Origin: an uncultured Ideonella sp.
Lineage (GTDB): Bacteria; Pseudomonadota; Gammaproteobacteria; Burkholderiales; Burkholderiaceae
DNA: 10,757 nt
Reading direction: 5' to 3'
NCBI GenBank assembly: GCA_946479475.1
Contig: CAMLGG010000181.1
Location: 1 to 10,757 of the forward strand
Shown: piece by piece, positions 1 to 10,757 of the stretch
Layout of the letters: the number at the start of each line of letters is the position of its first letter
Position numbering within the stretch: position 1 is the stretch's first letter
The notes under the pieces: model-generated
Told to the model about the DNA's origin: nothing
Database searches by the model: none
Seen by the model: only the letters and a program-made list of their open reading frames with translations
Position numbers and translations under genes: made by a program

Positions 1-368
1 GCGCGCATTTCCACCGTGCTCCCCGTCGCCGCGTGCGTGCCGGCGCCGGGCCAGTCGCCCTCGCCATACACCCCGCCGCGGAACTCGCCGCCGGCGCGGC
101 CGCCGAACTGCGAGCCGCCGAAGCCCTGGTCGGGCCGGCCGGATCGCATGGGCGGCACGTCCACCCGGCCGGCGAAGGGGCTCACGTAGGCCGGATCGCC
201 GCTGCCGAACACGCCGCGCTCGTCGGCGTTCGCGTCGCGGCCGGCATCCGAGGCGCCGTGCGCGGCGCCGGCCGCGCCGGCATAGGGGCCGCCGCCCGCG
301 AAGCCGCGCTCGGCGCCGGCGCCATCGAATTGGTCCTCGTCGTGCGGATCGTGCTGCCGTGGCTGCAT
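1..368 (-). CDS. Gly-rich hypothetical protein, N-terminal part (runs off left edge)
   Basis: An open frame of 122 codons runs without a stop from an ATG at 368 to the left edge. The start is well supported: AAGGAG lies at 375-380, six bases before the ATG, and a -24/-12 type promoter core lies at 405-418. Codons end mostly in G or C, as in the neighbours. The visible part is hydrophilic, starts with a His/Asp/Glu-rich stretch (MQPRQHDPHDEDQFDG), and continues with many Gly, Ala, Arg and Tyr residues (for example FGGSQFGGRAGGEFRGG around residues 82-98). There is no signal peptide or membrane segment, and it looks disordered. I do not recognise the family. Gly-rich N-termini of this type precede BON or other small domains in some Burkholderiales proteins, but the part that would decide this lies outside the window. 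Confidence 0.72.
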   Translation of the reverse strand, partial: MQPRQHDPHDEDQFDGAGAERGFAGGGPYAGAAGAAHGASDAGRDANADERGVFGSGDPAYVSPFAGRVDVPPMRSGRPDQGFGGSQFGGRAGGEFRGGVYGEGDWPGAGTHAATGSTVEMR

Positions 369-404
369 CCGGGTCTCCTTGATCGGGTCGGTCAGCATCG
401 GCCG

Positions 405-418
405 GCAAGGGCCGTACC
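405..418 (-). promoter_or_regulatory. -24/-12 (sigma-54 type) promoter of the Gly-rich gene
   Basis: On the minus strand the core reads GG-TACGGCCCTT-GC followed by C. GG is at 418-417 and GC at 406-405, with exactly ten bases between. The predicted transcript start is near 393, leaving a leader of about 25 bases with the AAGGAG site. It is one of twelve matching cores in the window. Its GG lies only 25 bases from the GG of the divergent promoter at 444-457. Confidence 0.68.
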
Positions 419-443
419 CAGGCTGGCGGGGCGGTGCCGCAGC

Positions 444-457
444 GGCATCCGGATTGC
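444..457 (+). promoter_or_regulatory. -24/-12 (sigma-54 type) promoter of the PIG-L/GT2 operon
   Basis: The core reads GG-CATCCGGATT-GC followed by C. GG is at 444-445 and GC at 456-457. The predicted transcript start is near 469, 20 bases before the ATG at 489. This position rules out the long upstream reading that begins at base 33. Confidence 0.68.
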
Positions 458-488
458 CGCGCAGCGCCGTGCGCGACGGACCGACGAC

Positions 489-1187
489 ATGAACGAAAGC
501 ACCGACCTCGCAGGCCTCGCGCTCATCGTCTCCGCGCACCTGGACGATGCCGTCTTCAGCTGCGGCGAGTGGATGGCCGCGCGGCCCGGCGCGCAGGTGG
601 TGACGGTCTTCGCAGGCTCGCCCGCCGACACCACCGTGACCACGCAATGGGACGCGGCTTGCGGCTTCGTCAATGCACGACAGGCCCTGCAGATGCGCCG
701 GCTCGAGGACAGGCAGGCGCTGGACGTCCTCGGCGCGCGGCCGCATTGGCTGGAGCACGCCGATGACCAGTACGGACAGGCCCGCGATGCGCAGCAGATA
801 GCCGCCACGCTGGTGCCGGTGCTCGAGAGCGTCGCGCCTGCGCGGGTGCTGCTCCCGCTGGGCCTGTTCCACCGCGACCACCTGCTCGCGCACGAAGCCA
901 CGCTGCAGGCGCTGGCCGCCTGGGCCCGGCCCGTGCAGGTCTGGGCCTACGAGGACGTCCCCTATCGACGACGCGGCGGCTTGCTGCAAAACCGCCTGTG
1001 CGAATTGCGGCAAGCGGGCGTTGTCGCCACCCCCTTGCCCGACCTCGACCCGCCGCCCGGTGCACTGAAGGACCGGGCCGTCTCGGCCTACGTCAGCCAG
1101 TGGCGCGCGCTCGGCGACGAGGCTCGCCGGGACACGCGCCGACCCGAGCGCTTCTGGTCGATCGAACGGCCGTCGATGGAGCGCTGA
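489..1187 (+). CDS. PIG-L (LmbE-like) family deacetylase
   Basis: This 232-residue protein belongs to the PIG-L family of zinc-dependent N-acetyl hydrolases, which remove acetyl groups from N-acetylglucosamine-type sugars (as in GPI precursors, mycothiol or bacillithiol). The metal-site motif near the N-terminus is AHLDD at residues 16-20 (usually AHPDD, so Pro is replaced by Leu). The second metal motif is HRDH at 128-131. There is no signal peptide, so it should be cytoplasmic. The frame is open back to base 33, but 489 is chosen because a sigma-54 type promoter at 444-457 places the transcript start near 469 and the protein starts right at family homology. The Shine-Dalgarno site is weak. 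The glycosyltransferase gene follows after 7 bases, so the two are almost certainly cotranscribed and may act on one glycan or glycolipid. The substrate cannot be named from sequence. The family is certain; the exact reaction is not. Confidence 0.9.
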   Translation: MNESTDLAGLALIVSAHLDDAVFSCGEWMAARPGAQVVTVFAGSPADTTVTTQWDAACGFVNARQALQMRRLEDRQALDVLGARPHWLEHADDQYGQARDAQQIAATLVPVLESVAPARVLLPLGLFHRDHLLAHEATLQALAAWARPVQVWAYEDVPYRRRGGLLQNRLCELRQAGVVATPLPDLDPPPGALKDRAVSAYVSQWRALGDEARRDTRRPERFWSIERPSMER

Positions 1188-1194
1188 AACGCCG

Positions 1195-2067
1195 ATGACC
1201 GATCCGCAGCTCATCACCGTCGTCGTGCTGACCCACAACCGGGTTGGCGAACTGCTGCGGACGCTGGACCGGTTGCACGAACTGCCCGAGCCGCCGCCGG
1301 TCATCGTCGTCGACAACGCATCCACCGACGGCACGGCGGCCGAGGTGGGGCGTCGCTTCCCGCAGGTCCGCCTGGTCGCACGCCCGGCGAACGAAGGCGC
1401 TGCCGGCCGCAACGCGGGCGTCTCCCGCGTCCAGACGCCCTATGTGGCCTTCTGCGACGACGACACCTGGTGGGATCCGGGCTCGCTGGAGCGAGCCGTC
1501 ACCATGATGGAGGCCTGCCCCCGGCTCGCGGCGCTTTCGGCCCGCGTGCTGGTCGGCACGTCCCGGCAGCTCGATCCGACCTGCGCACGGATGGCCGAGA
1601 GCCCGTTGCCTGCAGAGGCGCTGCCCGGTCCCGCGCTGGTGGGCTTCATGGCCGGCGCGTCGGTATTGCGCACCCGGGCCTATCGCGAGGTGGGCGGCTA
1701 CGAGCCGCGGCTGTTCATCGGTGCGGAGGAGTCGCTCATGAGCCTCGACCTGCTCTCGCGCGGCTGGCGAATCGCGTATGCCCCTCAGCTCGTCTGCCAC
1801 CACCACCCCTCGCCTGCCCGCAATGCGTCGCGCCGGCGCTGGCTGCTCGCCCGCAACCGCCTCTGGGTGGCCTGGCTGCGCCTGCCGGCGAGGCTGGCGT
1901 GGCAGGAGACCCGCATGGCGCTGCGGGAGGCCCTGCGGGATGGCGCCGCCTGGGGGGCGCTGTCGGCGGCGATCGCGGGCCTGCCGTGGGTCGTGCGCTG
2001 CCGCGGCGTCGTCCCGAGGGAGGTCAGCACGGCCTGGATGCAGGTGCGGGCCGCGCGCCGGGCGTGA
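1195..2067 (+). CDS. Glycosyltransferase family 2 (GT-A fold)
   Basis: A 290-residue inverting glycosyltransferase of family GT2, which transfers a sugar from a nucleotide-sugar donor. The N-terminal beta-alpha start is TVVVLTHNR (8-16, approximately), followed by the nucleotide-binding VVDNASTDGT (38-47) and NEGAAGRNAG (66-75). The metal-binding acidic motif is CDDDTWWD (87-94, DxD-like at 88-90). GAEES (176-180) sits where the catalytic acidic residue of GT2 enzymes usually lies, and a His cluster CHHHP follows at 201-205. The last 80 residues are Arg/Trp/Ala-rich and may lie along the membrane, but there is no clear transmembrane anchor. The ATG at 1195 lies 7 bases after the deacetylase stop, so the two genes form one operon. 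No acceptor is evident. Similar proteins work on cell-surface glycans or lipid-linked sugars. Confidence 0.9.
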   Translation: MTDPQLITVVVLTHNRVGELLRTLDRLHELPEPPPVIVVDNASTDGTAAEVGRRFPQVRLVARPANEGAAGRNAGVSRVQTPYVAFCDDDTWWDPGSLERAVTMMEACPRLAALSARVLVGTSRQLDPTCARMAESPLPAEALPGPALVGFMAGASVLRTRAYREVGGYEPRLFIGAEESLMSLDLLSRGWRIAYAPQLVCHHHPSPARNASRRRWLLARNRLWVAWLRLPARLAWQETRMALREALRDGAAWGALSAAIAGLPWVVRCRGVVPREVSTAWMQVRAARRA

Positions 2068-2082
2068 CTCGTGCAGCGCAGC

Positions 2083-2096
2083 GGAACGCGGCTTGC
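2083..2096 (+). promoter_or_regulatory. -24/-12 (sigma-54 type) promoter of the 70-residue gene
   Basis: The core reads GG-AACGCGGCTT-GC followed by C. GG is at 2083-2084 and GC at 2095-2096. The predicted start is near 2108, 18 bases before the ATG at 2126. The core is identical, base for base, to that of the DUF883 gene at 5456-5469. It begins 15 bases after the glycosyltransferase stop, so any activator site further upstream would lie inside that gene. Confidence 0.68.
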
Positions 2097-2125
2097 CGAC
2101 GGCGTGACAGCCACTGGAGTACCGC

Positions 2126-2338
2126 ATGACCTCGTCCGATCCCGAGCATTCGCTGGCGGTCTGCCTCGCCGATTCGCTGCGCCTGCGTTGCTTCGCGCTC
2201 GAGGAGACGCTGCGGCAGAGCGGCGGCCCCGACCTGATGCTGGCACTGCTGAAGGACATCCGCCGCCTGTCGACCGAGCTGAGGACGGCGATCGACGCCG
2301 AGGATGCGCTCGACCGCATCCGCCACGACGTCGCCTGA
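2126..2338 (+). CDS. Small hypothetical protein, 70 residues
   Basis: The ATG at 2126 is preceded by a good Shine-Dalgarno site (CTGGAG, about seven bases upstream) and by its own -24/-12 promoter core at 2083-2096, which together make this a real gene despite its size. The protein is predicted to be mainly helical. It has a Leu/Arg-rich first half (ADSLRLRCFALEETLRQ, about 15-31) and a second amphipathic helix (LLKDIRRLSTELRTAIDAED, about 40-59). It has no signal peptide, membrane segment or metal motif. It is separated by 58 bases from the glycosyltransferase and converges on the glycine-zipper gene with a 13-base gap. I do not recognise the family; a small cytoplasmic helical-hairpin or coiled-coil protein is all that can be said. 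Confidence 0.75.
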   Translation: MTSSDPEHSLAVCLADSLRLRCFALEETLRQSGGPDLMLALLKDIRRLSTELRTAIDAEDALDRIRHDVA

Positions 2339-2351
2339 GCGCGCTCGTCGT

Positions 2352-2642
2352 TCAACGAGGGCGGCGCAGGTCCGTCGCGCCCGGGAAGCCGGTCGCCAGC
2401 AGGACGCCGGCCACCAGGCCGACGACCGCACCCGCCAGGCTGCCCAAGGGCCCCGCGGCCAGCCCGATCAAGCCGCCGATCGCCAGCCCGGCGATGGCAC
2501 CGACGACGGCGCCCAGCGGGTGCTCTGCCAGTGCGTGCCCGAGCGTGTTTCCGCGCATCGCGGGCTTGGCTGCGGGATCGACCGATGGGCCGGCGCGTGC
2601 GCCGGGCTCACGCCCTGGAAGATCAGGCCTGTCATCGCTCAT
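2352..2642 (-). CDS. Glycine-zipper membrane protein, 96 residues
   Basis: The protein has a hydrophilic, Pro/Arg/Asp-rich N-terminal part (1-40) and then a long Gly/Ala/Leu/Val stretch (about 43-86) in which glycines recur every three to four residues (GAVVGAIAGLAIGGLIGLAAG and onward). This is the pattern of glycine-zipper segments, which pack as a pair of membrane helices. It ends with a short basic tail (DLRRPR). There is no cleavable signal peptide, so it is probably an inner-membrane protein. The start at 2642 has a Shine-Dalgarno site (GAGGTG, about six bases upstream) and a -24/-12 promoter core at 2676-2689. The stop lies 13 bases from the convergent small gene. No enzymatic role is apparent; related small proteins are often part of envelope stress sets, which is inference here. 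Confidence 0.82.
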   Translation of the reverse strand: MSDDRPDLPGREPGARAGPSVDPAAKPAMRGNTLGHALAEHPLGAVVGAIAGLAIGGLIGLAAGPLGSLAGAVVGLVAGVLLATGFPGATDLRRPR

Positions 2643-2675
2643 GGCTTCACCTCGCTGTGCTCGCCCTTTTGCCGG

Positions 2676-2689
2676 GCAAGCTGCATTCC
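2676..2689 (-). promoter_or_regulatory. -24/-12 (sigma-54 type) promoter of the glycine-zipper gene
   Basis: On the minus strand the core reads GG-AATGCAGCTT-GC followed by C. GG is at 2689-2688 and GC at 2677-2676. The predicted start is near 2664, 22 bases before the ATG at 2642. Confidence 0.66.
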
Positions 2690-2776
2690 GCGCCAGGCCT
2701 GTGCCGACCCTGCGGCCGGATGCAGGAGGTGTCCATCGTGTCCGCCCGTACCCGGCTTTTCGGCAAGCGATGCATG

Positions 2777-2812
2777 AAAAAAGGCCCTTCGCCGTTGCCG
2801 GCTCCGGGCCTT
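2777..2812 (-). terminator. Rho-independent terminator of the Gln/Arg-rich repeat gene
   Basis: Read on the minus strand, arms AAGGCCC (2812-2806) and GGGCCTT (2787-2781) pair. A smaller inner hairpin (CGGC 2802-2799 with GCCG 2794-2791) lies in the loop, and the outer arm runs directly into six T residues (2782-2777). It begins about 20 bases after the stop of the gene ending at 2833. This is a classical intrinsic terminator. Confidence 0.85.
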
Positions 2813-2832
2813 CGGGTGCGAGCCGTTCAGGC

Positions 2833-3084
2833 TCAGCGTTGGCCGCCGCGGTTCGCGTCGGAGGTACGCGAGCCTTGCTGTTCGCGACCGGCTTCGCTGC
2901 TGCGTGAGCCTTCCTGTTCGCGACCGGCTTCGTTGCTGCGCGAGCCCTGCTGTTCGCGGCTGCCCTTCTGCTGCTGCTGGTCCTGGCCGCGGTTCATGTC
3001 GCTGCCGCCTTGCTGGCCGCTGCGATTGCCTTGCTGTTGCTGCTGCTGGTCGCGTTGCTGATCACGGTTCTGCTGCTGGGGCAT
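2833..3084 (-). CDS. Gln/Arg/Gly/Ser-rich disordered protein with three 12-residue repeats
   Basis: This 83-residue, extremely hydrophilic protein has no hydrophobic core and is predicted to be disordered. Residues 1-40 are dominated by Gln runs with Arg, Asp and Asn. Residues 44-79 are three tandem 12-residue repeats: EQQGSRSNEAGR, EQEGSRSSEAGR and EQQGSRTSDANR. They are encoded by a 36-base tandem DNA repeat (2848-2955). The ATG at 3084 is chosen over the one at 3135 because AGGAG lies seven bases upstream of it and because 3135 lies upstream of the -12 element of the promoter at 3132-3145. A strong terminator follows at 2777-2812, so this is a single-gene unit. The composition resembles small stress proteins of the KGG/hydrophilin kind, but the KGG motif itself is absent, so that likeness is weak. 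The opposite strand is also open here and encodes a Leu/Cys-rich shadow, which I reject. Confidence 0.8.
   Translation of the reverse strand: MPQQQNRDQQRDQQQQQQGNRSGQQGGSDMNRGQDQQQQKGSREQQGSRSNEAGREQEGSRSSEAGREQQGSRTSDANRGGQR
2848..2955 (-). repeat. Three tandem copies of a 36-base coding repeat
   Basis: On the plus strand the copies share AGCC(T/C)TGCTGTTCGCG as their most constant part. Units starting at 2871 and 2907 are nearly identical over 36 bases. The unit nearest the stop codon is the most diverged. The repeat is in frame, so gain or loss of a unit would change the protein by 12 residues without a frameshift. Confidence 0.85.
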
Positions 3085-3131
3085 GCTGGGACTCCTGTTG
3101 CAAATCGGCCGATTGCCGCATCCGGGAGGTG

Positions 3132-3145
3132 GCAAACACGATACC
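3132..3145 (-). promoter_or_regulatory. -24/-12 (sigma-54 type) promoter of the Gln/Arg-rich repeat gene
   Basis: On the minus strand the core reads GG-TATCGTGTTT-GC followed by C. GG is at 3145-3144 and GC at 3133-3132. The predicted start is near 3120, 36 bases before the ATG at 3084. The -24 half (GGTAT) is less like the classical TGGCAC than others in the set. Confidence 0.62.
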
Positions 3146-3176
3146 CGCCCGCGTATCTCGTCGACCCCTTGCCCGA

Positions 3177-3190
3177 GGCATGCGGCTTGC
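3177..3190 (+). promoter_or_regulatory. -24/-12 (sigma-54 type) promoter of the HHE protein/response regulator pair
   Basis: The core reads GG-CATGCGGCTT-GC followed by C. GG is at 3177-3178 and GC at 3189-3190. The predicted start is near 3202, 35 bases before the ATG at 3237. Its GG is 31 bases from the GG of the divergent promoter at 3132-3145, so the two units may be coregulated from a shared or distant activator site. Confidence 0.68.
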
Positions 3191-3236
3191 CGGATACGGG
3201 CCTGCCAACCCTTACTGGACTTGACAGGAGATCCCC

Positions 3237-3710
3237 ATGCCCGCGACCGAGAAGACCGATGCCATCAAGCTGCTGACCGAGGACCACAAGGAGGTCAAGA
3301 AGCTCTTCGACGAGTACAAGAAGCTGTGCGACAACGAGGCTTCGCCGGACGAACGCCAGGCGTTGGCCGGGCAGATCTGCAGCATGCTGACCGTGCACAC
3401 CACGATCGAGGAGGAGCTGTTCTACCCCCTGGCGCGCGAGGCGCTGGGCGAGGAGGCCGACCTGATCGACGAGGCCACGGTGGAGCACGCCAGCGCCAAG
3501 GACCTGATCGCGCAGATCGAGTCCTCGTCGCCCGACGAGCCGCTTTACGACGCGAAGGTCACGGTGCTGGGCGAGTACATCCAGCACCACGTGAAGGAGG
3601 AGGAAGACGAAATCTTCCCGAAGATCAGGAAGACCGAGCTGGATCTGGCGGTTCTGGGCAGCGAAATGGCCGAGCGCAAGCAGGCCCTGAGTTCCGCCGT
3701 GGCCTCCTGA
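3237..3710 (+). CDS. Hemerythrin HHE cation-binding domain protein (first copy)
   Basis: A 157-residue single-domain protein of the HHE/hemerythrin-like family, a four-helix bundle that binds a di-iron centre and has been linked to oxygen, nitric oxide or iron handling. Likely ligands are visible in the usual order: H17 (EDHKE), H54 and E58 (HTTIEEE), H84 (VEHAS), and H117/H118 with E122 (QHHVKEEEDEIFP). There is no signal peptide, so it should be cytoplasmic. The ATG at 3237 is preceded by AGGAG seven bases upstream and by a -24/-12 promoter core. The response regulator gene starts 37 bases downstream and is probably cotranscribed. A clear paralogue lies at 8637-9263. The iron-binding family call is firm; the ligand sensed or carried is not known from sequence. 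Confidence 0.93.
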   Translation: MPATEKTDAIKLLTEDHKEVKKLFDEYKKLCDNEASPDERQALAGQICSMLTVHTTIEEELFYPLAREALGEEADLIDEATVEHASAKDLIAQIESSSPDEPLYDAKVTVLGEYIQHHVKEEEDEIFPKIRKTELDLAVLGSEMAERKQALSSAVAS

Positions 3711-3747
3711 CGCACGCGCCCGCTCGGCGCCACCCGCAGGGCGGCCC

Positions 3748-5040
3748 ATGGCCTGCGACTTCGGCGAACTGCTCCAGCAGGTGGCACGTGGACTGGAGCG
3801 CCGCGCCCATCAGCGCGCGATCCACTTCGCCTTCGACAGCCGGGGCCCCGGGCTGCTGCTGGACAGCGACGGCATCCGTCTCGGCTGCGGCCTGCACCGC
3901 CTCAGCCTGGGCGTGCAGGAGTTGATCCGTCACGGTGCCATGATGCTGGACGGCCGCGTGCGCCGCTCGCGCAGCGGCCAGGCCATGGTGACCGTGCGCC
4001 TGTGGGCCACCGGCGTGCTCGACGGCGACACGGCCACCGAAGCGGTGCTGCGCAGGCTCGCGCTGCACGATTGCGCCGACACGGCCCCGGGCGAGCTGCA
4101 CCCGCAGCCGCGCCTGAGACGACTCGAGGGCGAGTGCCCCTGCACGGGGGCGCACATCCGCCTGGCGCGTTCTCCCGCACAGGGGGTGGTTGCGGTCTCC
4201 GAAGGCCGCTTCGAGGTCGACGAGCATGGGCCGGCCGGCAGCGCCGACGAGCCTCAGGCGGCCGAGGCGCCAGCCTGGGTGATCGCCGCCGACGCTGTCT
4301 CGGGCGACTCCCTGGCGCAGCGCCTGAAGAGGCTCGGCTGGGCTCCCAGGCGCTTCGAGCGTGCGGCCGATGCGATCCGGCGCCTGCGCGTGCCGCGGCC
4401 GGGCGGTCGCGGCGAGGCGCCGGTGCTGGTGCTGCTGCTCGATGGCGACGGCGACAGCGAGACGCAGCAGGCCGCGCGGCGCCTGGGCGAACTGCTTCCA
4501 CCCGAGGTACGCAAGGTGCTTGCCGTGGTGCTGGGCTCCGCGGCTCTCGCCGGCGGGCCGCGCAGCGACGGTTTCGAGGTGATCCCCTTGCCGCTGGGCG
4601 CGACGCTCCTGCGCCGCCTCACCGCCGACGCTGTCCAGTCGCCCTTGCCGCTTCCGCACCCCTCCAGCCATCGGCCGCTGCTGGTGGTCGACGACGAGCC
4701 GATCAATCGCTCGGTGGCGGTGCAGACTCTCCATCGGATGGGGGAGATCGCCGAGGAGGCCGGCGACGGCCTGGAGGCGATCGCCCGATGCCGCGTGACC
4801 CATCCCTCGCTCGTGCTGATGGACGTGGACATGCCGCACCTGGACGGCATGGGAGCCACCCGGGCCCTGCGCGAACTTCAGGCCCGCGGCGAGGTTTCAC
4901 CCTGCCCCATCGTGGCGGCGACGGCCTCGCTCGATCCATCGCGGCTGGGCGCGTGCATCGAGGCCGGCATGGACCAGGCCATGCTCAAGCCGCTGACGCC
5001 CGCCATGCTGCGCGAGACGATGGATCGGTGGCTGTGCTGA
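3748..5040 (+). CDS. Response regulator with degenerate kinase-like N-terminus and C-terminal receiver domain
   Basis: The last 120 of 430 residues are an intact receiver (REC) domain: acidic pair D315-D316 (LLVVDDEPIN), phospho-acceptor D359 (LVLMDVDMPHLDG), T392 (VAATA) and K414-P415 (LKPL). Residues 176-295 resemble a second receiver that has lost its acidic and phosphorylation residues (starts AWVIAADAV, central VLVLLLDGDGDS). Residues 25-95 have a faint resemblance to the ATP-binding domain of hybrid histidine kinases (LLLDSDGIRLGCGLHRLS in the place of the N-box region), but no HisKA phospho-acceptor helix and no glycine-rich ATP lid are visible. The architecture is that of a BarA/GacS-type hybrid kinase stripped of its kinase core. 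It has no DNA-binding or AAA+ domain. It has no promoter core of its own and follows the HHE gene by 37 bases. It probably acts as a phosphate acceptor or protein-interaction switch for an external kinase. A large opposite-strand open frame here is a shadow. Confidence 0.88.
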   Translation: MACDFGELLQQVARGLERRAHQRAIHFAFDSRGPGLLLDSDGIRLGCGLHRLSLGVQELIRHGAMMLDGRVRRSRSGQAMVTVRLWATGVLDGDTATEAVLRRLALHDCADTAPGELHPQPRLRRLEGECPCTGAHIRLARSPAQGVVAVSEGRFEVDEHGPAGSADEPQAAEAPAWVIAADAVSGDSLAQRLKRLGWAPRRFERAADAIRRLRVPRPGGRGEAPVLVLLLDGDGDSETQQAARRLGELLPPEVRKVLAVVLGSAALAGGPRSDGFEVIPLPLGATLLRRLTADAVQSPLPLPHPSSHRPLLVVDDEPINRSVAVQTLHRMGEIAEEAGDGLEAIARCRVTHPSLVLMDVDMPHLDGMGATRALRELQARGEVSPCPIVAATASLDPSRLGACIEAGMDQAMLKPLTPAMLRETMDRWLC

Positions 5041-5085
5041 GGGCCGGGGCGGGCCAGGCGCGCCAGGTCCCGGGGCCCCGTTCCC

Positions 5086-5409
5086 TCAGCGCGACAAGCG
5101 CCCGATGAGCACGCCGAGAAGCAAGGCCCCGGCGATGTAGCTCAAGGGGTTCTCGCGGACCCGCACGCGGCAGGCGTCGGCGCACTCCTGCTCGAAGTCG
5201 GAGAAGCGCTGGGCCTGGGTGCGCAGCTTCTCGGCGGCCTGCTGGACCGACTCGGCCGCCGTGTCGACCGCCTCGTGCGCGCCGCTGACCACGCGTTCGA
5301 ACCGGCGCTCCATCGCGGCCGGGTCCATGCCGCCGCCGGCGGCACTGTCGTTGGTCTTGCCGGCGGGCGGGATCGCCGGGTTCTCGGGCAGGGGCATTTC
5401 ACTGGCCAT
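5086..5409 (-). CDS. DUF883 (ElaB/YqjD-like) membrane-anchored protein
   Basis: This 107-residue protein has the build of the DUF883 family (ElaB, YqjD and YgaM in E. coli). A variable N-terminus (1-30, Pro/Gly-rich) is followed by a long charged helix (about 31-85, Glu/Ala/Gln-rich, FERVVSGAHEAVDTAAESVQ). One C-terminal membrane helix (PLSYIAGALLLGVLIGRL, about 88-105) is preceded by the typical RENP turn. E. coli family members anchor stationary-phase ribosomes to the inner membrane and are induced in stress. The start at 5409 has GAGGAG eight bases upstream and a -24/-12 promoter core at 5456-5469. Two Cys (76 and 80) in the helix are unusual for the family. It converges on the response regulator with 45 bases between and is not cotranscribed with the dehydrogenase, because its own promoter lies in the gap. 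Confidence 0.9.
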   Translation of the reverse strand: MASEMPLPENPAIPPAGKTNDSAAGGGMDPAAMERRFERVVSGAHEAVDTAAESVQQAAEKLRTQAQRFSDFEQECADACRVRVRENPLSYIAGALLLGVLIGRLSR

Positions 5410-5455
5410 GGTGCGCGCTCCTCATCGAAGGCAGGGAAGGTGGATCCTCCGGATG

Positions 5456-5469
5456 GCAAGCCGCGTTCC
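5456..5469 (-). promoter_or_regulatory. -24/-12 (sigma-54 type) promoter of the DUF883 gene
   Basis: On the minus strand the core reads GG-AACGCGGCTT-GC followed by C. GG is at 5469-5468 and GC at 5457-5456. The predicted start is near 5444, 35 bases before the ATG at 5409. It is identical to the core of the promoter at 2083-2096. Confidence 0.68.
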
Positions 5470-5495
5470 GACGCTCTGCCCCCGCTCACGCCTGC

Positions 5496-6686
5496 TCACG
5501 CTTTCCTCAGGGGGTCGGAGCCGCCCGGGCTGAGCACCACCTTGCGGCAATCCTCCAGCTTGTTGGCGAACAGCTCGTAGCCCTGTGCCGCCTCCTCCAG
5601 CGGCAACTGGTGGCTGATGATCTGCTCGGGCTTGAGCTCGCCCCGGCCGATGCGCTCGAGCAGTTCGGGCATGTGCTGCTGCACGTGCGTCTGCCCCATT
5701 CGGAAGCTCAATCCCTTCTCGAAGGCATCGCCGAAGAGAAAGCCGTGGATGAAGCCGGCGTAGACGCCCGGCACGCTGACGATGCCGCCGCGGCGCGTCG
5801 CCGCCATGGCCTGGCGCAGGGCGCTGCCGCTGGAGCCCTCGACCTTGAGCGCGGTCATCACGGTCTCCAGCCGGCTGCCCTTGGCCTCGAAGCCCACCGC
5901 GTCGATGGCTGCGTCCACGCCGCGGAACTGCGTCTGCTCGATGATGTGCTGGGCGGGATCGTCGACGCGGCCGAAGTTCACCAGCTCGACATCCCAGGTG
6001 GCCTTGGCGAAGGCGAGGCGGTAGTCGTGGTGATCGACCATGAAGATCCGCTCGACGCCCAGCATGCGCGCGCAGGCCGCGGCCATCATGCCCACCGGGC
6101 CGGCGCCGAAGATCGCCAGCGTGCGCCCCGGGCCGGCCTCGGCGTTGACCACCGCCTGGTAGCCGGTGGGCAGGATGTCGGAGAGGAACAGGACCTGCGC
6201 ATCCGAAAGCGCGCCGGGCACCGGCAGCGGGCCGGTGTTGGCCATGGGCACCCGCACGTACTCGGCCTGGCCACCGGGCAGGCCGCCGTAGAGGTGGGTG
6301 TAGCCGAACATGGCGGCGCCGGGCCGCAGGTCCTTCCGGTTCAGGATGGCGCCGCGGCCGTCGTTGGTGGTCTCGCAGGCGGCGAAAAGCCTGCGCTGGC
6401 AGAAATAGCACTCGCCGCAGGCGACGACGAAGGGCACCACCACCCGGTCGCCGCGCTTGACGCGTGTCACCGCCGCGCCGGTTTCTTCCACGATGCCCAT
6501 GAACTCGTGGCCGAGGATGTCGCCCTCCTTCAGGCCCGGCACCTTGCCGCGGTACAGGTGCAGGTCGGATCCGCAGATCGCGGTGGCGGTGACCCGCAGG
6601 ATGATGTCCTGCGGATCCTGGACGACGGGGTCGGGCACGGTCTCGACGCGGACGTCGCGGGTGCCGTGGTAGGTGAGAGCTCGCAT
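5496..6686 (-). CDS. Zinc-dependent alcohol dehydrogenase, formaldehyde-dehydrogenase-like (MDR superfamily)
   Basis: A full-length 396-residue medium-chain dehydrogenase that should oxidise an alcohol or aldehyde adduct with NAD(P). The catalytic zinc motif is C38 ([11 protein letters not shown]) with H60-E61 (GHEFMG). The structural zinc Cys are C90, C93, C96 and C104 ([16 protein letters not shown]). The nucleotide-binding GAGPVG is at 194-199, followed by the strand ending in D218 (FMVDHHD), which favours NAD. The long insert after residue 105 and the motif LPTGYQAV match the glutathione-independent formaldehyde dehydrogenase-like subgroup rather than ordinary ADH. The start at 6686 has AAGG seven bases upstream and a -24/-12 promoter core at 6720-6733. 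It stands as a single gene. The physiological substrate is not fixed by the sequence; a detoxifying role in stress fits the neighbours but is inference. Confidence 0.93.
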
Positions 6687-6719
6687 GGACTTGCCTTTCG
6701 CAACCTTTCCCTGCGACTG

Positions 6720-6733
6720 GCAACCGCGGTGCC
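6720..6733 (-). promoter_or_regulatory. -24/-12 (sigma-54 type) promoter of the dehydrogenase
   Basis: On the minus strand the core reads GG-CACCGCGGTT-GC followed by CA. GG is at 6733-6732 and GC at 6721-6720. The predicted start is near 6708, 22 bases before the ATG at 6686. It is among the best matches to the classical TGGCAC-N5-TTGC. The inverted repeats at 6764-6834 lie upstream, where activator sites are often found. Confidence 0.72.
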
Positions 6734-6763
6734 GGAACGGTGAGCGGCGAGCCCGTCGTCACT

Positions 6764-6855
6764 CATGCTGGAGCCTGCCTCTCGGAGGCAGGCTGGTGGG
6801 AGCCCACTGCATGCTGGAGCCCCGCTCTCGGAGGGGGCCCGGGGGAGCTCGGTTC
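6764..6855. repeat. Imperfect tandem repeat of 46-base period containing a 9-bp hairpin
   Basis: CATGCTGGAGCC occurs at 6764-6775 and again at 6810-6821. CTCTCGGAGG occurs at 6779-6788 and 6825-6834. Both pairs are 46 bases apart. In the first copy GCCTGCCTC (6773-6781) and GAGGCAGGC (6785-6793) form a perfect nine-pair hairpin with a TCG loop; in the second copy the pairing is broken. The repeat lies between the dehydrogenase promoter and the end of the sigma-54 gene. It could be a REP-like element, a pair of activator sites or part of a transcription end. Confidence 0.6.
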
Positions 6856-6867
6856 ACCGCCACCGGC

Positions 6868-6891
6868 GGTAGCCGGCGACTGCCGGCTACC
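6868..6891. repeat. Perfect 10-bp inverted repeat over the sigma-54 gene stop codon
   Basis: GGTAGCCGGC (6868-6877) and GCCGGCTACC (6882-6891) pair perfectly around a GACT loop. The stop codon of the sigma-54 reading frame (TAG, 6889-6887) lies inside the right arm. No T run follows on the minus strand, so an intrinsic terminator is only one possibility. Confidence 0.6.
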
Positions 6892-8313
6892 TCCGCCGGC
6901 GCCGCTCGACGGACTCGATGTGCAGCATCTGCCGGTACTTGGTCACCGTCCGCCGCGCCACCATCAGCCCCTGGCCGACCAGCTGGCGCCGGATCTCGGC
7001 GTCCGAAAGCGGATGGGCCGGGTTCTCGGCCTCGATGATGTCCTTGATGAGGCCGCGGATGGCCGTGCCGGAACAGGCGCTGCCGTTGGACGACACGATG
7101 GCCCGCGAGAAGAAGTACTTCAGCTCGAACACGCCGATCGGCGTGGCCATGTACTTGTTGTTCGTCACCCGCGACACGGTCGACTCGTGGATGCCGCACT
7201 CCTCGGCGATCTCGCGCAGCAGCAAGGGCTTCATCGCCATCGGGCCGTAGTCGAGGAAGTGGCGCTGGCGGCGCACGATGGCCCCGGCCACGTCGAGGAT
7301 GGTCGAGAAGCGCTGCTCGACGTTGCGCAGGGTCCAGCGGGCGTCCTCCAGGTGGCCGGCCATCTCGGCGTTCTCCGCCTTGCGGTGGCGCTGGAACAGC
7401 TCGGCATAGACCCGGTTCAGCCGGATGCGCGGCACCACTGCCGGATTGAGCAGCACCGTCCACTGGTTGCGGCGCTTCTTCACCACCACGTCGGGGATGA
7501 CGTAGGTGATGTTCGCCGGGCCGAAGCGCCAGCCGGGCCGCGGGTCCAGCCGGCGGATGCGGTCGCACACCTCCTTGACGCGGCTGTGGTCGCGCCGAGG
7601 CTCGAGGCCAGCGCGTTGACGTCCCGGGCGGCGAGCGCAGGCAGGTGCTCGTCGACGATGGTCCGTGCCATGCCGCGCAACTCGGGGCAGTCTATCGAGG
7701 CGAGCTGCAGCCGCAGGCACTCCCCCACGCTGCGCGCGCCGACGCCAGCCGGGTCCAGCGACCGCACGCGTCTCAGCGCGATCTGCATCTCCTCGATCGT
7801 CGCGGGCGGGTCGATCGGGGCGATGGCGATCAGTTCCTCCAGCGGCGTGCGCAGGTACCCGTCGTCGTCGAGCGACTCGACGACGGTGCGCGCCAGCATC
7901 AGGTCGCGCGGCATCAGCGGCAAGACGTTGAGCTGGCCGTGCAGGTGCATCGCGAGCGTCGTCTCGACGGCCATCATGTCCATGGCCGTGAGGTCGCCGT
8001 CCTCGGCCCGGCGTGTCAGGCCGGTGCGATCGGCCTGCCAGAGCGCGCGGTCGTCGCCGTCCATCGGTTCCATCGAGACATCGGCGTTGCCGCCATCGAG
8101 GTCCGGCTCGGCCAGGCCCGTTTCCGGGCCCAGCGGACTGCCGGGTTCGGCGGACGGCTCCTCGTCCTCCAGGAACGGGTTCTCGCCGAGCTTGCTTCGC
8201 ACGATGGCGGCAAAGTCCAGCGACGACATCTGAAGGAGCTTCACCGCGTGTTGCAGACGCGGAGACAGCGTCTGCACCTGCCGGTGCTCCGCCCGCAGTT
8301 CGATGGATCCCAC
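6887..8313 (-). pseudogene. rpoN: Sigma-54 factor RpoN (second-type paralogue), broken by a one-base frameshift
   Basis: Two adjacent minus-strand frames together give a complete 475-residue sigma-54, close to the usual 470-500. The start is the GTG at 8313 (GAGGAGG seven bases upstream), giving a Gln/Leu-rich activator region I (VQTLSPRLQHAVKLLQMSSL), an acidic region II (about 48-110) and a core-binding region. After codon 242 (ACC, 7590-7588) the frame is lost, and homology continues one base over as HSRVKEVCDRIRRLDPRPG. Adding one C at 7588 restores everything, including the helix-turn-helix LREIAEECGIHESTVSRVT (about 366-384) and the RpoN box ARRTVTKYRQ (453-462; canonical ARRTVAKYRE). 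As written, translation would stop at 7480, giving 277 residues without the promoter-binding half. The rest of the gene is intact, so a recent mutation or a read error in a C run are both possible. The gene has its own -24/-12 promoter. Region I wording (QMSSLDF) differs from the usual housekeeping RpoN, which suggests an RpoN2-like paralogue. Confidence 0.9.
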
Positions 8314-8379
8314 GTTCTCGCCTCCTCTACCGGTCGTGGCCGCCCGCGGCACCACTGGCCACGGGAAGCACACGCTCAG

Positions 8380-8393
8380 GCAAGGCCTGTGCC
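8380..8393 (-). promoter_or_regulatory. -24/-12 (sigma-54 type) promoter of the rpoN-like gene
   Basis: On the minus strand the core reads GG-CACAGGCCTT-GC followed by C. GG is at 8393-8392 and GC at 8381-8380. The predicted start is near 8368, giving the longest leader of the set (about 55 bases to the GTG at 8313). It rules out the upstream ATG at 8454. It implies that sigma-54 makes its own paralogue or itself. Confidence 0.7.
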
Positions 8394-8575
8394 GGGCGCT
8401 GCCGGCACGGGGCATGGTTCGAAAAAGGCCGGACTGGCGCACACTTGGCGCCACGCACGGCGTTCCTTCGGCGCCCGGAACGCACGGAAGCTCCGCCCGG
8501 GCACCGAATTTGCCGTAATCCGTGCGCGGCCGGTTGAACTTTTCACCCGTGCGCCCTCGAGGCGCTTACGCCGAC

Positions 8576-8589
8576 GGCACGGCACTTGC
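8576..8589 (+). promoter_or_regulatory. -24/-12 (sigma-54 type) promoter of the second HHE gene
   Basis: The core reads GG-CACGGCACTT-GC followed by C, the closest in the window to classical TGGCACG-N4-TTGC. GG is at 8576-8577 and GC at 8588-8589. The predicted start is near 8601, 36 bases before the ATG at 8637. The core lies in a perfect inverted repeat (8576-8584 with 8587-8595). Confidence 0.72.
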
Positions 8590-8636
8590 CGTGCCTGCCA
8601 GCAGAAGGTCCGCGAGGCGGCCCGAGGAGACCCACC

Positions 8637-9263
8637 ATGCCCGATCCCGCCAAGAGCACACGCGTGACGCGTGCGGCCACCGCCGCGCGCAGCCAGATCA
8701 TCGACCAGCTGAAGGAAGACCACCGGCGCATCAAGCGCGCGTACCGCGAGTTCCTGCGCCTGGACGCCGACCGCAACGGCGACCAGTGCGAATCCATCGT
8801 CCGCCGCACCCTTTCGCTGCTGCGCGTGCACAGCGTGCTCGAGGAGGAGCTGATCTATCCGGTGATGCGCCCGATCGTCAGCGAGGCGGAAGCGGTCGAC
8901 GAGGCCGAGGTCGAGCACGAGATCGTCCGCTATCTCGGCGAGCAGCTCGAATCGGCCAGCGCGGTGGACGACAAGTTCTCCGCCCGGTTCGCGGTGCTGT
9001 GCGAGTACGTGCTGCATCACGTGAAGGAAGAGGAAGGCGAACTCTTCCCGCAGCTCAAGCGCGCCAAGCTCGACTGGGAAGGCCTGTGCAACGAGTTCAC
9101 CGAAAGGCGTGAAGCGCTGCTGACCGAGGAGGGCGCCCACGACACCCTCACCGGCATGAACAGCATCCTGCCCACCGACGAGACCGGCGTGCTGATGACC
9201 GGCCACGAGGTCGGCCGCTACCCCCAGCGCGAAGCCGGCTCGATCACGAGCCGGAAGATTTAG
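8637..9263 (+). CDS. Hemerythrin HHE cation-binding domain protein (second copy)
   Basis: A 208-residue HHE-family protein, with the four-helix di-iron domain at about 20-160. Likely metal ligands are H29 (EDHRR), H65 and E69 (HSVLEEE), H94 (VEHEI), and H127/H128 with E132 (LHHVKEEEGELFP). The spacing and wording match the first copy at 3237-3710, but this protein adds an N-terminal basic extension (1-20) and a 45-residue C-terminal tail rich in Thr, Glu and Gly with no recognised domain. The ATG at 8637 has GAGGAG seven bases upstream. The in-frame ATG at 8585-8587 region is excluded because it overlaps the promoter -12 element. It is divergent from rpoN and followed by G+C-rich hairpins. 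It is probably cytoplasmic; oxygen, nitric oxide or iron sensing are all possible. Confidence 0.92.
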   Translation: MPDPAKSTRVTRAATAARSQIIDQLKEDHRRIKRAYREFLRLDADRNGDQCESIVRRTLSLLRVHSVLEEELIYPVMRPIVSEAEAVDEAEVEHEIVRYLGEQLESASAVDDKFSARFAVLCEYVLHHVKEEEGELFPQLKRAKLDWEGLCNEFTERREALLTEEGAHDTLTGMNSILPTDETGVLMTGHEVGRYPQREAGSITSRKI

Positions 9264-9271
9264 GCCCCCAC

Positions 9272-9305
9272 GGCCCCCTGCCAGGGGCCTGCCCCCCATG
9301 GGGGC
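9272..9305 (+). other. Two adjacent G+C hairpins after the second HHE gene
   Basis: GGCCCC (9272-9277) pairs with GGGGCC (9284-9289), and GCCCCC (9291-9296) pairs with GGGGGC (9300-9305). They start nine bases after the stop at 9263. There is no T run, so they may slow polymerase or protect the 3' end rather than act as a classical terminator. The rest of 9306-9396 shows no feature I can name. Confidence 0.45.
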
Positions 9306-9396
9306 TCGCGCAGCGGACCGGCAGAGCCGGATCCGCGCACGCCCTGGTATGGGTCGCAGGTGGTGGCGGATTCAAGGGGCAGAAGTGAATCCACCG

Positions 9397-9410
9397 GGTC
9401 CGCCGTTTGC
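9397..9410 (+). promoter_or_regulatory. -24/-12 (sigma-54 type) promoter of the BON lipoprotein gene
   Basis: The core reads GG-TCCGCCGTTT-GC followed by T. GG is at 9397-9398 and GC at 9409-9410. The predicted start is near 9422, 23 bases before the ATG at 9445. It is the most divergent of the set in the -24 half (no A at the second base after GG), but the -12 half TTTGCT is close to classical. Confidence 0.6.
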
Positions 9411-9444
9411 TGGTTAGAGGTCCCGATACTTCACGGAGCTTTCC

Positions 9445-9774
9445 ATGAACAAGCATTCCCTGATCGTCGCGATGATGGTGGCCTGCGGCGTGGTGACCTT
9501 GTCCACCATGGCCGGCTGTGCAGTGACCAGCGGCCAGAGCAGCGTCGGCCAGTACGTCGACGACAAGACCATCACCGCACGCGTCAAGACCCGCATGGCT
9601 GCCGATCCCACGGTCAGCGCAATGCGCATCGACGTGACCACCCTGAACGGCACGGTCCAGCTCTCGGGCTTCGCGACCAGCCCGACCGAGAAGGCCAAGG
9701 CCGGCGAGATCGCCGCCGCGGTCCCGGACGTGAAGTCGGTCCGCAACGACATCGTGGTCAGGGCAGCGCAGTAA
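9445..9774 (+). CDS. BON-domain lipoprotein
   Basis: A 109-residue exported lipoprotein with a signal sequence (MNKHSLIVAMMVACGVVTLS) and a lipobox ending at C25 (STMAGC). The residue after the Cys is Ala, which favours transport to the outer membrane. One BON domain follows (about 38-107), with the typical DDKTITARVKTRM start, the central LNGTVQLSGF with conserved Gly at 69 and 75, and VPDVKSVRNDIVV at the end. BON domains bind phospholipid surfaces, and family members such as OsmY and DolP act in envelope stress and integrity. The start has CGGAG seven bases upstream and a -24/-12 promoter core. A bidirectional terminator follows 23 bases after the stop. It is well supported; its partner in the envelope is unknown. 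Confidence 0.93.
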   Translation: MNKHSLIVAMMVACGVVTLSTMAGCAVTSGQSSVGQYVDDKTITARVKTRMAADPTVSAMRIDVTTLNGTVQLSGFATSPTEKAKAGEIAAAVPDVKSVRNDIVVRAAQ

Positions 9775-9797
9775 CGCCGGTGTTTGACACACAGCGA

Positions 9798-9821
9798 AAA
9801 GGGCCGGTGCGCCGGCCCTTT
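9798..9821. terminator. Bidirectional intrinsic terminator
   Basis: A ten-pair stem forms between AAAGGGCCGG (9798-9807) and CCGGCCCTTT (9812-9821) around a TGCG loop. T residues end the plus-strand arm, and four A residues before it give a T run on the minus strand. It serves both the BON gene (+) and the barrel protein gene (-), which converge here. Confidence 0.88.
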
Positions 9822-9856
9822 CTGGCGCCTGCCGCCTCGATCAGCGGCATGACCCC

Positions 9857-10519
9857 TCAGAACTGGTACCTGTAGCCGAAGGTCGTGAGCTGGACGTCGT
9901 GCTTGCCGACGCCGGGGAAGCGAAGATCGTGGCGTTCCCACTCGACGACCAGCGCGGAGCTGCGGGCCAGCTCGTAGCTCATCCCCACGCCGTACGAAGC
10001 GCCCCAACCCTTGGCGCGCCCGGTGGGCACGCCGGAGACCGGATCGGCCGAGACCTCGGTGCGCCCGTAGGTCGCCCCGAGCTTGAAATGGGCGCTGAAG
10101 GCGCCGGCCGGCCAACGGCCCAGAAGGCTGAGGTTCAGGCCCTTCGCCGAGGTGGTCCCGCCGGCACGGTCGGCGTCGCCCAGGTGGAGGTAGCCGATCT
10201 CGGCGCCGAGGTAGCGGTTGAACAGCCCGCCCACGTGGGCGCGGCCGGCAAGGTCGGGGTTCTTGCAGCGATAGCCGCCGAAGCCGCAGCCGGTGGAGTA
10301 GCGGGCCTGGCCGAAGTCGATGCCGAGCCACGCCCGCTTGTCGGCCGGTGTCAGGAGGAAGCTGCCTTGCGGCGCGGGTGGCTCCTGTTCGGCCGCGGGG
10401 GAACCCGGGGCGGCCGGGGCCTGTGCCAGGGCAAGGGATTGAACGACAGCCGCCGAGAGCGCACAAACGGCACGGGCGGCCGGCCCCCGGCGACTGCTGC
10501 AGCGTCGAAGCGAATCCAT
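9857..10519 (-). CDS. Outer membrane beta-barrel protein (OmpA/OmpW-like barrel)
   Basis: A 220-residue protein with a signal peptide (basic n-region to R16, hydrophobic AVCALSAAVVQSLALA, likely cut after AQA near 34). A short Pro/Ala/Glu-rich linker (35-55) precedes an eight-strand-like barrel of alternating residues, such as AWLGIDFGQARYS, YLGAEIGYLHLG and GASYGVGMSYEL. The last residue is Phe after a typical closing strand (LTTFGYRYQF), the signature recognised by the BAM machinery. C78 and C85 (GCGFGGYRC) probably form a loop disulfide. ATG 10519 is chosen for its AAGGA site six bases upstream and a transcript start predicted near 10559. ATG 10546 is possible but would leave a 13-base leader, and the longer reading from 10654 begins upstream of the promoter. 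No plug or OmpA peptidoglycan domain is present. The function beyond a small barrel is unknown. Confidence 0.85.
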   Translation of the reverse strand: MDSLRRCSSRRGPAARAVCALSAAVVQSLALAQAPAAPGSPAAEQEPPAPQGSFLLTPADKRAWLGIDFGQARYSTGCGFGGYRCKNPDLAGRAHVGGLFNRYLGAEIGYLHLGDADRAGGTTSAKGLNLSLLGRWPAGAFSAHFKLGATYGRTEVSADPVSGVPTGRAKGWGASYGVGMSYELARSSALVVEWERHDLRFPGVGKHDVQLTTFGYRYQF

Positions 10520-10570
10520 GCCACATCCTTTCAACATGAAGCGCATCGCACATCTCCCGGCAATATGGTG

Positions 10571-10584
10571 GCAAACGCAATGCC
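10571..10584 (-). promoter_or_regulatory. -24/-12 (sigma-54 type) promoter of the barrel protein gene
   Basis: On the minus strand the core reads GG-CATTGCGTTT-GC followed by CA. GG is at 10584-10583 and GC at 10572-10571. The predicted start is near 10559, 40 bases before the ATG at 10519. Confidence 0.66.
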
Positions 10585-10671
10585 CCCCGGCTGTCGGACG
10601 GTGCCGCGCGGGCGCACCCGACTCGTCCGCTCCTGCTGACGGACGGCTCCTCAAGGGAGGAGCGGATTAAA

Positions 10672-10757
10672 GTGCGCGTCCCGATGCCGATCTCCATCCG
10701 TTCCCGCCTGCTCCTGCTGGTGATGTCGGTGCTGCTGCCCGCGATGGCCGGCGCGCT
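10672..10757 (+). CDS. N-terminus of a membrane protein, possibly a sensor kinase (runs off right edge)
   Basis: The frame is open to the right edge. GTG at 10672 is chosen because GGAG lies nine bases upstream; ATG at 10684 is in the same frame but lacks a good site. The visible residues (MPISIRSRLLLLVMSVLLPAMAGA from the ATG) form a short basic start followed by a strongly hydrophobic helix ending in LLPA. This opening is common in sensor histidine kinases and diguanylate cyclases of Burkholderiales, but only some 28 residues are seen, so the product is a guess. Unlike the other transcription units, no GG-N8-TTGC core is visible in the roughly 90 bases upstream. Confidence 0.6.
   Translation, partial: MRVPMPISIRSRLLLLVMSVLLPAMAGA

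Follow-up and report, generated by a model that had tools for sequence, protein, structure and literature searches.

A stretch of 10,757 nucleotides (nt) from an uncultured Ideonella sp. (contig CAMLGG010000181.1, positions 1 to 10,757, hereafter the window) carries a gene for sigma-54, here called rpoN2, and, ahead of twelve gene starts, copies of GG-N8-TTGC, a sequence with the form of the -24/-12 core of sigma-54 promoters. An earlier note, made from the letters of this DNA, had claimed that every transcription unit in it starts with such a core and that the block is a sigma-54 regulon island with envelope, redox and stress-type products.

The window proteins were named by Pfam and NCBIfam profiles. 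At the left a core at 405-418(-) stands before a gene starting at 368(-), and back to back with it the core at 444-457(+) precedes a gene pair (489-2067) for a PIG-L family deacetylase (489-1187(+)) and a family 2 glycosyltransferase (1195-2067(+)). Next come a core at 2083-2096(+) before the gene of a 70-residue protein (2126-2338(+)), one at 2676-2689(-) before that of a Gly-zipper-like protein (2352-2642(-), below the Pfam cut-off) and one at 3132-3145(-) before that of a Q-rich, repeat-bearing small protein (2833-3084(-)). The last of these is back to back with the core at 3177-3190(+), which leads a PA2171-like hemerythrin (3237-3710(+), below the NCBIfam cut-off) and a protein with a C-terminal receiver domain (3748-5040(+), a profile match). 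On the minus strand follow a 107-residue protein (5086-5409(-)), DUF883/YqjD-like by eye and with no Pfam match, behind the core at 5456-5469(-), and a zinc alcohol dehydrogenase (5496-6686(-)), like glutathione-independent formaldehyde dehydrogenase and below the cut-off for it, behind the core at 6720-6733(-). Beyond rpoN2 are a second hemerythrin (8637-9263(+), a profile match) with its core at 8576-8589(+), a BON-domain lipoprotein (9445-9774(+), OsmY-like, below cut-off) with its core at 9397-9410(+), and an outer-membrane beta-barrel protein (9857-10519(-), OMP_b-brl and OmpA_membrane) with its core at 10571-10584(-).

The rpoN2 gene itself (6887-8313(-)), a sigma-54 paralogue, follows a core at 8380-8393(-), a candidate autoregulation site, and is split over two frames, with 7480 to 7720 common to both. 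The frame at 7480-8313(-) holds the activator-interacting domain (AID) and most of the core-binding domain (CBD), that at 6887-7720(-) the end of the CBD and the DNA-binding domain (DBD). The statement that the block includes rpoN holds, with the correction that the gene is in two frames, and the change of frame is either a sequencing fault or a real mutation or loss.

Cores and leaders in the window

All twelve cores lie where the earlier note had put them, each on the coding strand of its downstream gene, and the distances from GC to start codon, re-measured as 29, 31, 33, 33, 34, 36, 46, 46, 47, 47, 51 and 66 nt, keep to the 29-66 that it had given. In the 100 nt before each of the twelve starts a core is present in 12/12 cases; dinucleotide-shuffled leaders carried one in a mean of 0.59 of 12 and a maximum of 4 (2000 shuffles), and the rough estimate of 0.3 chance matches was of the right order of magnitude. 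That every unit has a core is true of these twelve starts but not of a thirteenth, the ATG at 10684(+), which has 24 codons inside the window and no GG-N8-TTGC in its 220-nt leader, making 12/13; by eye its gene is like the hybrid kinase of the relative L001 described below.

The motif is concentrated between genes, with 14 matches in 1737 bases of noncoding window DNA (8.1/kb) vs 5 in 9020 bases of coding DNA (0.55/kb), rather than at the equal density that had been named as telling against a regulon. Spacers of N5, N6, N7, N10 and N11 give 1-3 noncoding matches each and N9 gives 5, partly since GGG also fits N9. Directly after TTGC, at -11, stands C in 11/12 cores, unlike the textbook sigma-54 core, which has A or T there. 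Two surplus noncoding matches, at 3088+ and 8500+, break the pattern of one core per start, and, as they serve no start, they lend something to the idea that the cores are a dispersed repeat or uptake-type sequence lying between genes. Such a repeat is highly improbable, the twelve cores being oriented with the downstream gene at 29-66 nt and varied in their inner bases, and the spacer variants found in stretches of a related genome falling in leaders in 0/14 cases.

With the N-terminal piece of the window RpoN as query 8 loci were found, one of them a distant outgroup. The nearest relative, L001, comes from a groundwater Burkholderiales metagenome-assembled genome (G001) and is a rearranged island, with tblastn matches to nine window genes, including rpoN and, weakly, the receiver-domain protein, and with two further small-protein counterparts matched by eye; the PIG-L, glycosyltransferase and alcohol dehydrogenase genes had no tblastn match in L001. 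A core stands before 10/10 of the L001 genes compared (eight counterparts by tblastn, two by eye), among them those paired with the window cores at 2083, 2676, 3177, 5456, 8576, 9397 and 10571 and, by eye, with those at 405 and 3132, and the conservation of sites in relatives that had been proposed as a check is borne out here. When window and L001 leaders are aligned on the core, the two ten-base blocks counted from GG reach identities of 0.68 and 0.66, and every other block stays at 0.23-0.40; GG and TTGC are bound to match by construction, each of the eight inner bases is shared by 4-8 of 10 pairs, and -11 by 9/10.

The conservation in L001 argues that the window cores did not arise by chance. 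Chance in GC-rich leaders, or promoters of extracytoplasmic sigma factors beginning GGAAC, is the least credible of the explanations considered: 2/12 cores do begin GGAAC and the window has a G+C of 70%, against which stand the shuffles, the fixed N8 spacing, the L001 conservation and a control genome with 0/41 matches in leaders. Dispersed repeat, extracytoplasmic-sigma promoters and chance were all dropped on orientation, N8 spacing, conservation, shuffles and the control genome.

In the back-to-back promoter pairs 405/444 and 3132/3177 the -24 elements are 25 and 31 nt apart, so that an enhancer there would be very short, lie in the transcribed region of the partner or be dispensable. Look-alikes of the Q-rich small protein (2833-3084) were seen by eye near 14080 in L001, 12823 in L003, 1601 in L004, 12249 in L005 and 1312 in L007.

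RpoN2 as a paralogue with a linked activator

There are three rpoN matches in G001 and two each in G002-G007. A maximum-likelihood tree of 66 RpoN rows, midpoint rooted, with some long branches and a window row that fills 47% of the columns, gathers the 33 RpoN1 rows into a single clade (93/100, a little below the star of the tool), outside which fall the outgroup and 32 RpoNs that are island-type or extra; the window RpoN pairs with that of L001 (100/99) within an 11-row clade (100/100). On this phylogeny the island RpoN is distinct from the housekeeping RpoN (RpoN1) and is a paralogue of it, RpoN2. The RpoN box reads ARRTVTKYRQ in the window and L001 and ARRT(V/I)AKYRE in the RpoN1 rows printed, and the residues after SRVT or SRAT are also unlike between RpoN2 (window, L001) and RpoN1. 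A third sigma-54 of G001 (L016, on contig C100), 65% identical to RpoN2 over the matched part, has a leader without a core.

A GG-N8-TTGC within 180 nt of the start is found in 27/32 leaders of RpoN2 type vs 3/33 RpoN1 leaders, with script-assigned starts, a poor -24 part in some of the 27 and three RpoN1 leaders that are short (38-74 nt). Autoregulation of rpoN2 through this leader core is possible. At -11 the window cores have C in 11/12 cases and the noncoding cores of Burkholderia multivorans G in 7/11, the base being mixed elsewhere, RpoN1 promoters standing outside the comparison.

Each of G002-G007 has a gene for an NtrC-type activator at a distance of 2-11 kb from its island rpoN. Its product has the domains Response_reg, Sigma54_activat and HTH_8 (two proteins scanned) and the motif GSFTGA in 11/11 orthologues checked in relatives. 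With orthologues defined by a score of at least 400 bits (no other genome exceeds 331), the activator is present in 31/300 genomes of the order, and two or more rpoN matches, some of which may be split genes, are present in 33/300. Both are found in 24 genomes, the activator alone in 7, an extra rpoN alone in 9 and neither in 260, an odds ratio of 99 (Fisher p 5e-22, kinship ignored). Across the 29 genomes with both (these 24 and G002-G006) rpoN2 and activator are 0.3-22 kb apart in 25, and on different contigs in G001, G150, G243 and G261; in G001 the orthologue lies on a contig other than that of the island, beside a hybrid kinase and with LigD and topoisomerase IB genes nearby. A Comamonadaceae plasmid has rpoN and the activator gene close together and divergently oriented, the former with a core 37 nt upstream.

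The cores could be real sigma-54 promoters that are read by the housekeeping RpoN1, with RpoN2 being just one more target or non-functional here, a reading we consider unlikely. It draws on the broken frame of the window rpoN2 and on Ralstonia, in which rpoN2 expression needs rpoN1 and no phenotype is tied to rpoN2 (PMC4371752). Against it, a single activator both co-occurs with RpoN2 and is linked to it, the RpoN box and the recognition region of RpoN2 are unlike those of RpoN1, and -11, which is C in 11/12 cores, is the position that parts RpoN1 from RpoN2 promoters in Cereibacter (PMC11999139).

Several further activators were seen. In L149 (27726-30485), L129 (7466-10225) and L132 (6658-9211) a shorter sigma-54 activator of 313-347 residues, by eye without a receiver domain in these three genomes, is back to back with the receiver-bearing one. 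In G213 two activators of the orthologue type, both with a receiver, occur on separate contigs (405 and 381 bits). For another NtrC-type activator of G001 (L086, 1636-3000(+)) the called start is 85 nt downstream of a GGCACG-type core, a possible cascade. Genomes in which rpoN2 sits right beside the activator differ in their surroundings: unit heads carry a core in 3/16 (L131) and 1/17 (L144) cases in two of them and in 4/13 (L138) and 7/19 (L139) in two others.

Sites across genomes and the genes behind them

Raw genome counts of GGNAYN5TTGCC were set aside as a measure of the regulon, failing to separate genomes with and without the pair, and for this reason position, in leader or in gene, was used in their place. 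A leader was taken as the 5-150 nt before a same-strand gene, gene calls in the G001 and G009 stretches coming from a codon-usage script trained on the window, with approximate starts. All 94 matches of G001 divide into 49 in leaders, 33 inside genes and 12 in neither; in G009, the one control genome placed, which has one rpoN match and no activator orthologue, 0/41 are in leaders and 39 inside genes, these being 41 of 198 matches on 40 stretches from the head of the list (Fisher p 1e-10 for leader placing). The whole-genome comparison of leaders with genes that the earlier note had suggested, run here in a relative, thus came out in its favour. In the G001 stretches, changing the spacer by one or two bases either way yielded 14 matches, 0 of them in leaders, and putting A, T or G at -11 yielded 8, with 3 in leaders. 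GGNAYN5TTGCC lies above its reversed control in G001-G007, and GGNAYN5TTGCW shows little excess in G001 (40 vs 33).

On the G001 island contig C132, 10/13 matches are in leaders, and elsewhere 39/81, so the picture of an island as the site of the regulon is right in that the island is dense, but sites extend beyond it. Unit heads carry a core in 35/86 cases in L001-L007, 72/228 in 15 further stretches and 2/60 in the G009 stretches. Left out of the 15-stretch sum were L137 (2/10), L142 (1/8), L143 (0/6), L146 (1/16) and L147 (1/6), in which the activator comes with a single rpoN or only one of the two genes is present on the stretch. Islands also show more of the N9 variant (18/86 and 34/228), partly as GGG fits both, and N6, N7 and N10 variants are found at 3-6 of 86 and 8-13 of 228 heads. 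The window, with starts set by hand, is the densest core set seen; the annotated B. multivorans island has 11 noncoding cores (3.7/kb) vs 10 coding (0.29/kb).

Behind G001 leader sites outside L001 are 43 first genes, of which 42 were scanned and 33 had a Pfam match. Amongst them are a third hemerythrin, DksA/TraR and a pyridoxamine-oxidase-like protein, which we take to be of the general stress protein 26 type; a DUF3606 gene has its site too near the called start and was uncounted. Further first genes encode an alcohol dehydrogenase, heme oxygenase, mechanosensitive channel, zinc peptidase, DUF3501, glyoxalase-like and phospholipase-D-like proteins and UvrB, and topoisomerase IB of G001 has a TTGCA core. 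The set extends, too, to glycosyltransferases, lipases, polysaccharide export, a P450, a sulfatase and a transposase-type integrase. On C132 an operon for the stressosome proteins RsbR and RsbS has a core 57 nt before RsbR.

Relatives' islands add other genes. The Delftia region has Ku and a long catalase, with no core or a poor one in their leaders. In B. multivorans 37 kb of a replicon hold LigD, Ku, RpoN2, DUF892, CBS, PRC, UdgX, BON and DUF4142 genes, an alcohol dehydrogenase, the PIG-L/glycosyltransferase pair and two activators, with cores before BON, CBS, UdgX, an SDR operon and others and none before LigD, Ku, PIG-L or rpoN2.

These genes bear on whether the regulon might instead be a nutrient or envelope-biogenesis programme with some stress-like genes, which seems doubtful. 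The glycosyltransferase, polysaccharide export, lipase, sulfatase and P450 units with a core in G001 would fit it, as would the lack of a clear core at Ku, LigD and catalase and the induction of Ralstonia rpoN2 in minimal medium (PMC4371752). Against such a programme are the cores at hemerythrin, BON, DksA/TraR, general-stress-26-like, DUF3606 and stressosome genes, and the presence of Ku, LigD and catalase genes within relatives' islands.

A predicted stress and envelope regulon

The analysis shows the site set, its conservation, the paralogy of RpoN2, its co-occurrence and linkage with the activator and the restriction of sites to leaders in one relative. As predicted from sequence, the twelve cores are very probably the sigma-54 promoters of a stress and envelope regulon run by an autoregulated RpoN2-activator pair, and the earlier note's proposal of a regulon island under sigma-54, with products of envelope, redox and stress type, is strengthened by the L001 cores, the RpoN paralogue with its linked activator and the leader-restricted sites of G001. 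We infer that RpoN2 rather than RpoN1 is the sigma factor and that phosphorylation, a signal, the direction of regulation and stress as the occasion follow the scheme below.

A phosphorelay from a sensor is proposed because a hybrid kinase adjoins or is near the activator in relatives, and it would phosphorylate the NtrC-type activator, with its receiver, AAA+ domain bearing GSFTGA and Fis-type helix-turn-helix. The activator would then open RNA polymerase carrying RpoN2 at the GG-N8-TTGC cores, and a little RpoN2 (or RpoN1) could start a positive loop via the core in the rpoN2 leader. This loop may turn on the hemerythrins, the BON/OsmY-like and Gly-zipper-like envelope proteins, the dehydrogenase and the glycosyltransferases, with DksA/TraR, the stressosome and other units also switched on elsewhere in the genome.

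A number of observations weigh against the RpoN2-activator regulon. The activator lies outside the window, and on a separate contig in G001; 7/31 activator genomes have a single rpoN match, and 9 have an extra rpoN and no activator. The rpoN2 of the window is frame-shifted, its L001 homologue being open throughout, and that of B. multivorans has no core within 200 nt. Enhancers were looked for in 50 leaders of the window and G001, where 5-mer inverted repeats and gapped 4-mers were not clearly above Markov shuffles, and in pairwise window/L001 footprints, which gave no conserved block at a fixed distance from the core, both being weak searches. Raw GGNAYN5TTGCC counts are equally high in genomes without the pair (G009, 198 vs 40 reversed), and in L006, in which gene calling is poor, 0/9 unit heads have a core. 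Finally, Ku, LigD and catalase in relatives' islands lack a clear core of their own; they are neighbours rather than demonstrated targets, which takes weight from the RpoN2 pair as a substitute for RpoS and gives it to the non-stress programme.

That substitution was considered through the distribution of RpoS, scored by the TIGR02394 cut-off. RpoS is over the cut-off in 4/29 pair-bearing genomes (25/29 without) and in 129/300 of the order; amongst genomes of 3.5 Mb or more it is found in 4/24 with the pair vs 57/109 others (p 0.0015, kinship ignored), and it is found in 3/7 activator-only genomes. This is a hint that the pair may replace RpoS, in a pattern that may reflect kinship alone and in which some genomes may be incomplete. 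It can be suggested, tentatively, that many RpoS-less Burkholderiales make their general stress response via sigma-54, with a stressosome- or kinase-fed activator and autoregulated RpoN2 standing in for RpoS and the activator working from solution or via very short enhancers, given that only 25 and 31 nt separate the -24 elements of the two window pairs. OsmY-like BON proteins are presumably among the families common to this regulon and the RpoS response; RpoS differs in being of the sigma-70 class and needing no activator, the system here being sigma-54 with one.

Pairs of this kind have precedents. Cereibacter (Rhodobacter) sphaeroides has four rpoN genes, of which RpoN1, RpoN2 and RpoN3 each have their own activator, and its RpoN1 and RpoN2 promoters are told apart at -11 (PMC11999139, PMC3162934). 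The likeness is in RpoN paralogues with cognate activators, as proposed here; the difference is that the Cereibacter paralogues serve nif, flagellar and xrpA genes, and here stress and envelope units would be served from promoters packed in an island. A 2011 paper already remarks on second rpoN genes in Burkholderiales (PMC3162934). In Ralstonia solanacearum, likened here by its published description rather than by sequence, expression of the second rpoN needs rpoN1 and its role is called enigmatic by the authors (PMC4371752); its RpoN2 is not equivalent to RpoN1 and, among the growth defects tested, restores only that on C4-dicarboxylates (PMC4676750), and in these accounts it has no regulon or phenotype assigned, unlike the island proposed here. 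A 2025 survey puts multiple rpoN genes in about 5% of organisms, its main text making no mention of Comamonadaceae, Delftia or general stress (PMC12316311).

No published account of this regulon was found, judged by titles and abstract openings, with subscription literature mostly outside the scope. Sigma-54 paralogues paired with an activator of their own are already known as a kind, and the use of one for stress and envelope genes would be new. The usual picture of sigma-54 is of a factor for genes that lie scattered and are activated separately. With an activator dedicated to it, a dense island and, in one genome, about 49 leader sites, a paralogue such as RpoN2 would acquire a concrete, testable job. 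This suggests an ATP-gated alternative to RpoS for a stress response, one that sigma-54 would then lead.

In Bacillus the stressosome signals from RsbR, RsbS and RsbT to SigB. The G001 island contig resembles it in that RsbR and RsbS homologues head an operon, and is unlike it in that this operon is behind a sigma-54 core. In L026 (11978-13400) and L025 (1-4177), stretches of this island contig, RsbR and RsbS are followed by look-alikes of RsbT and RsbX, partly matched by eye, and by histidine kinases, with a sigma-54 core at the head.

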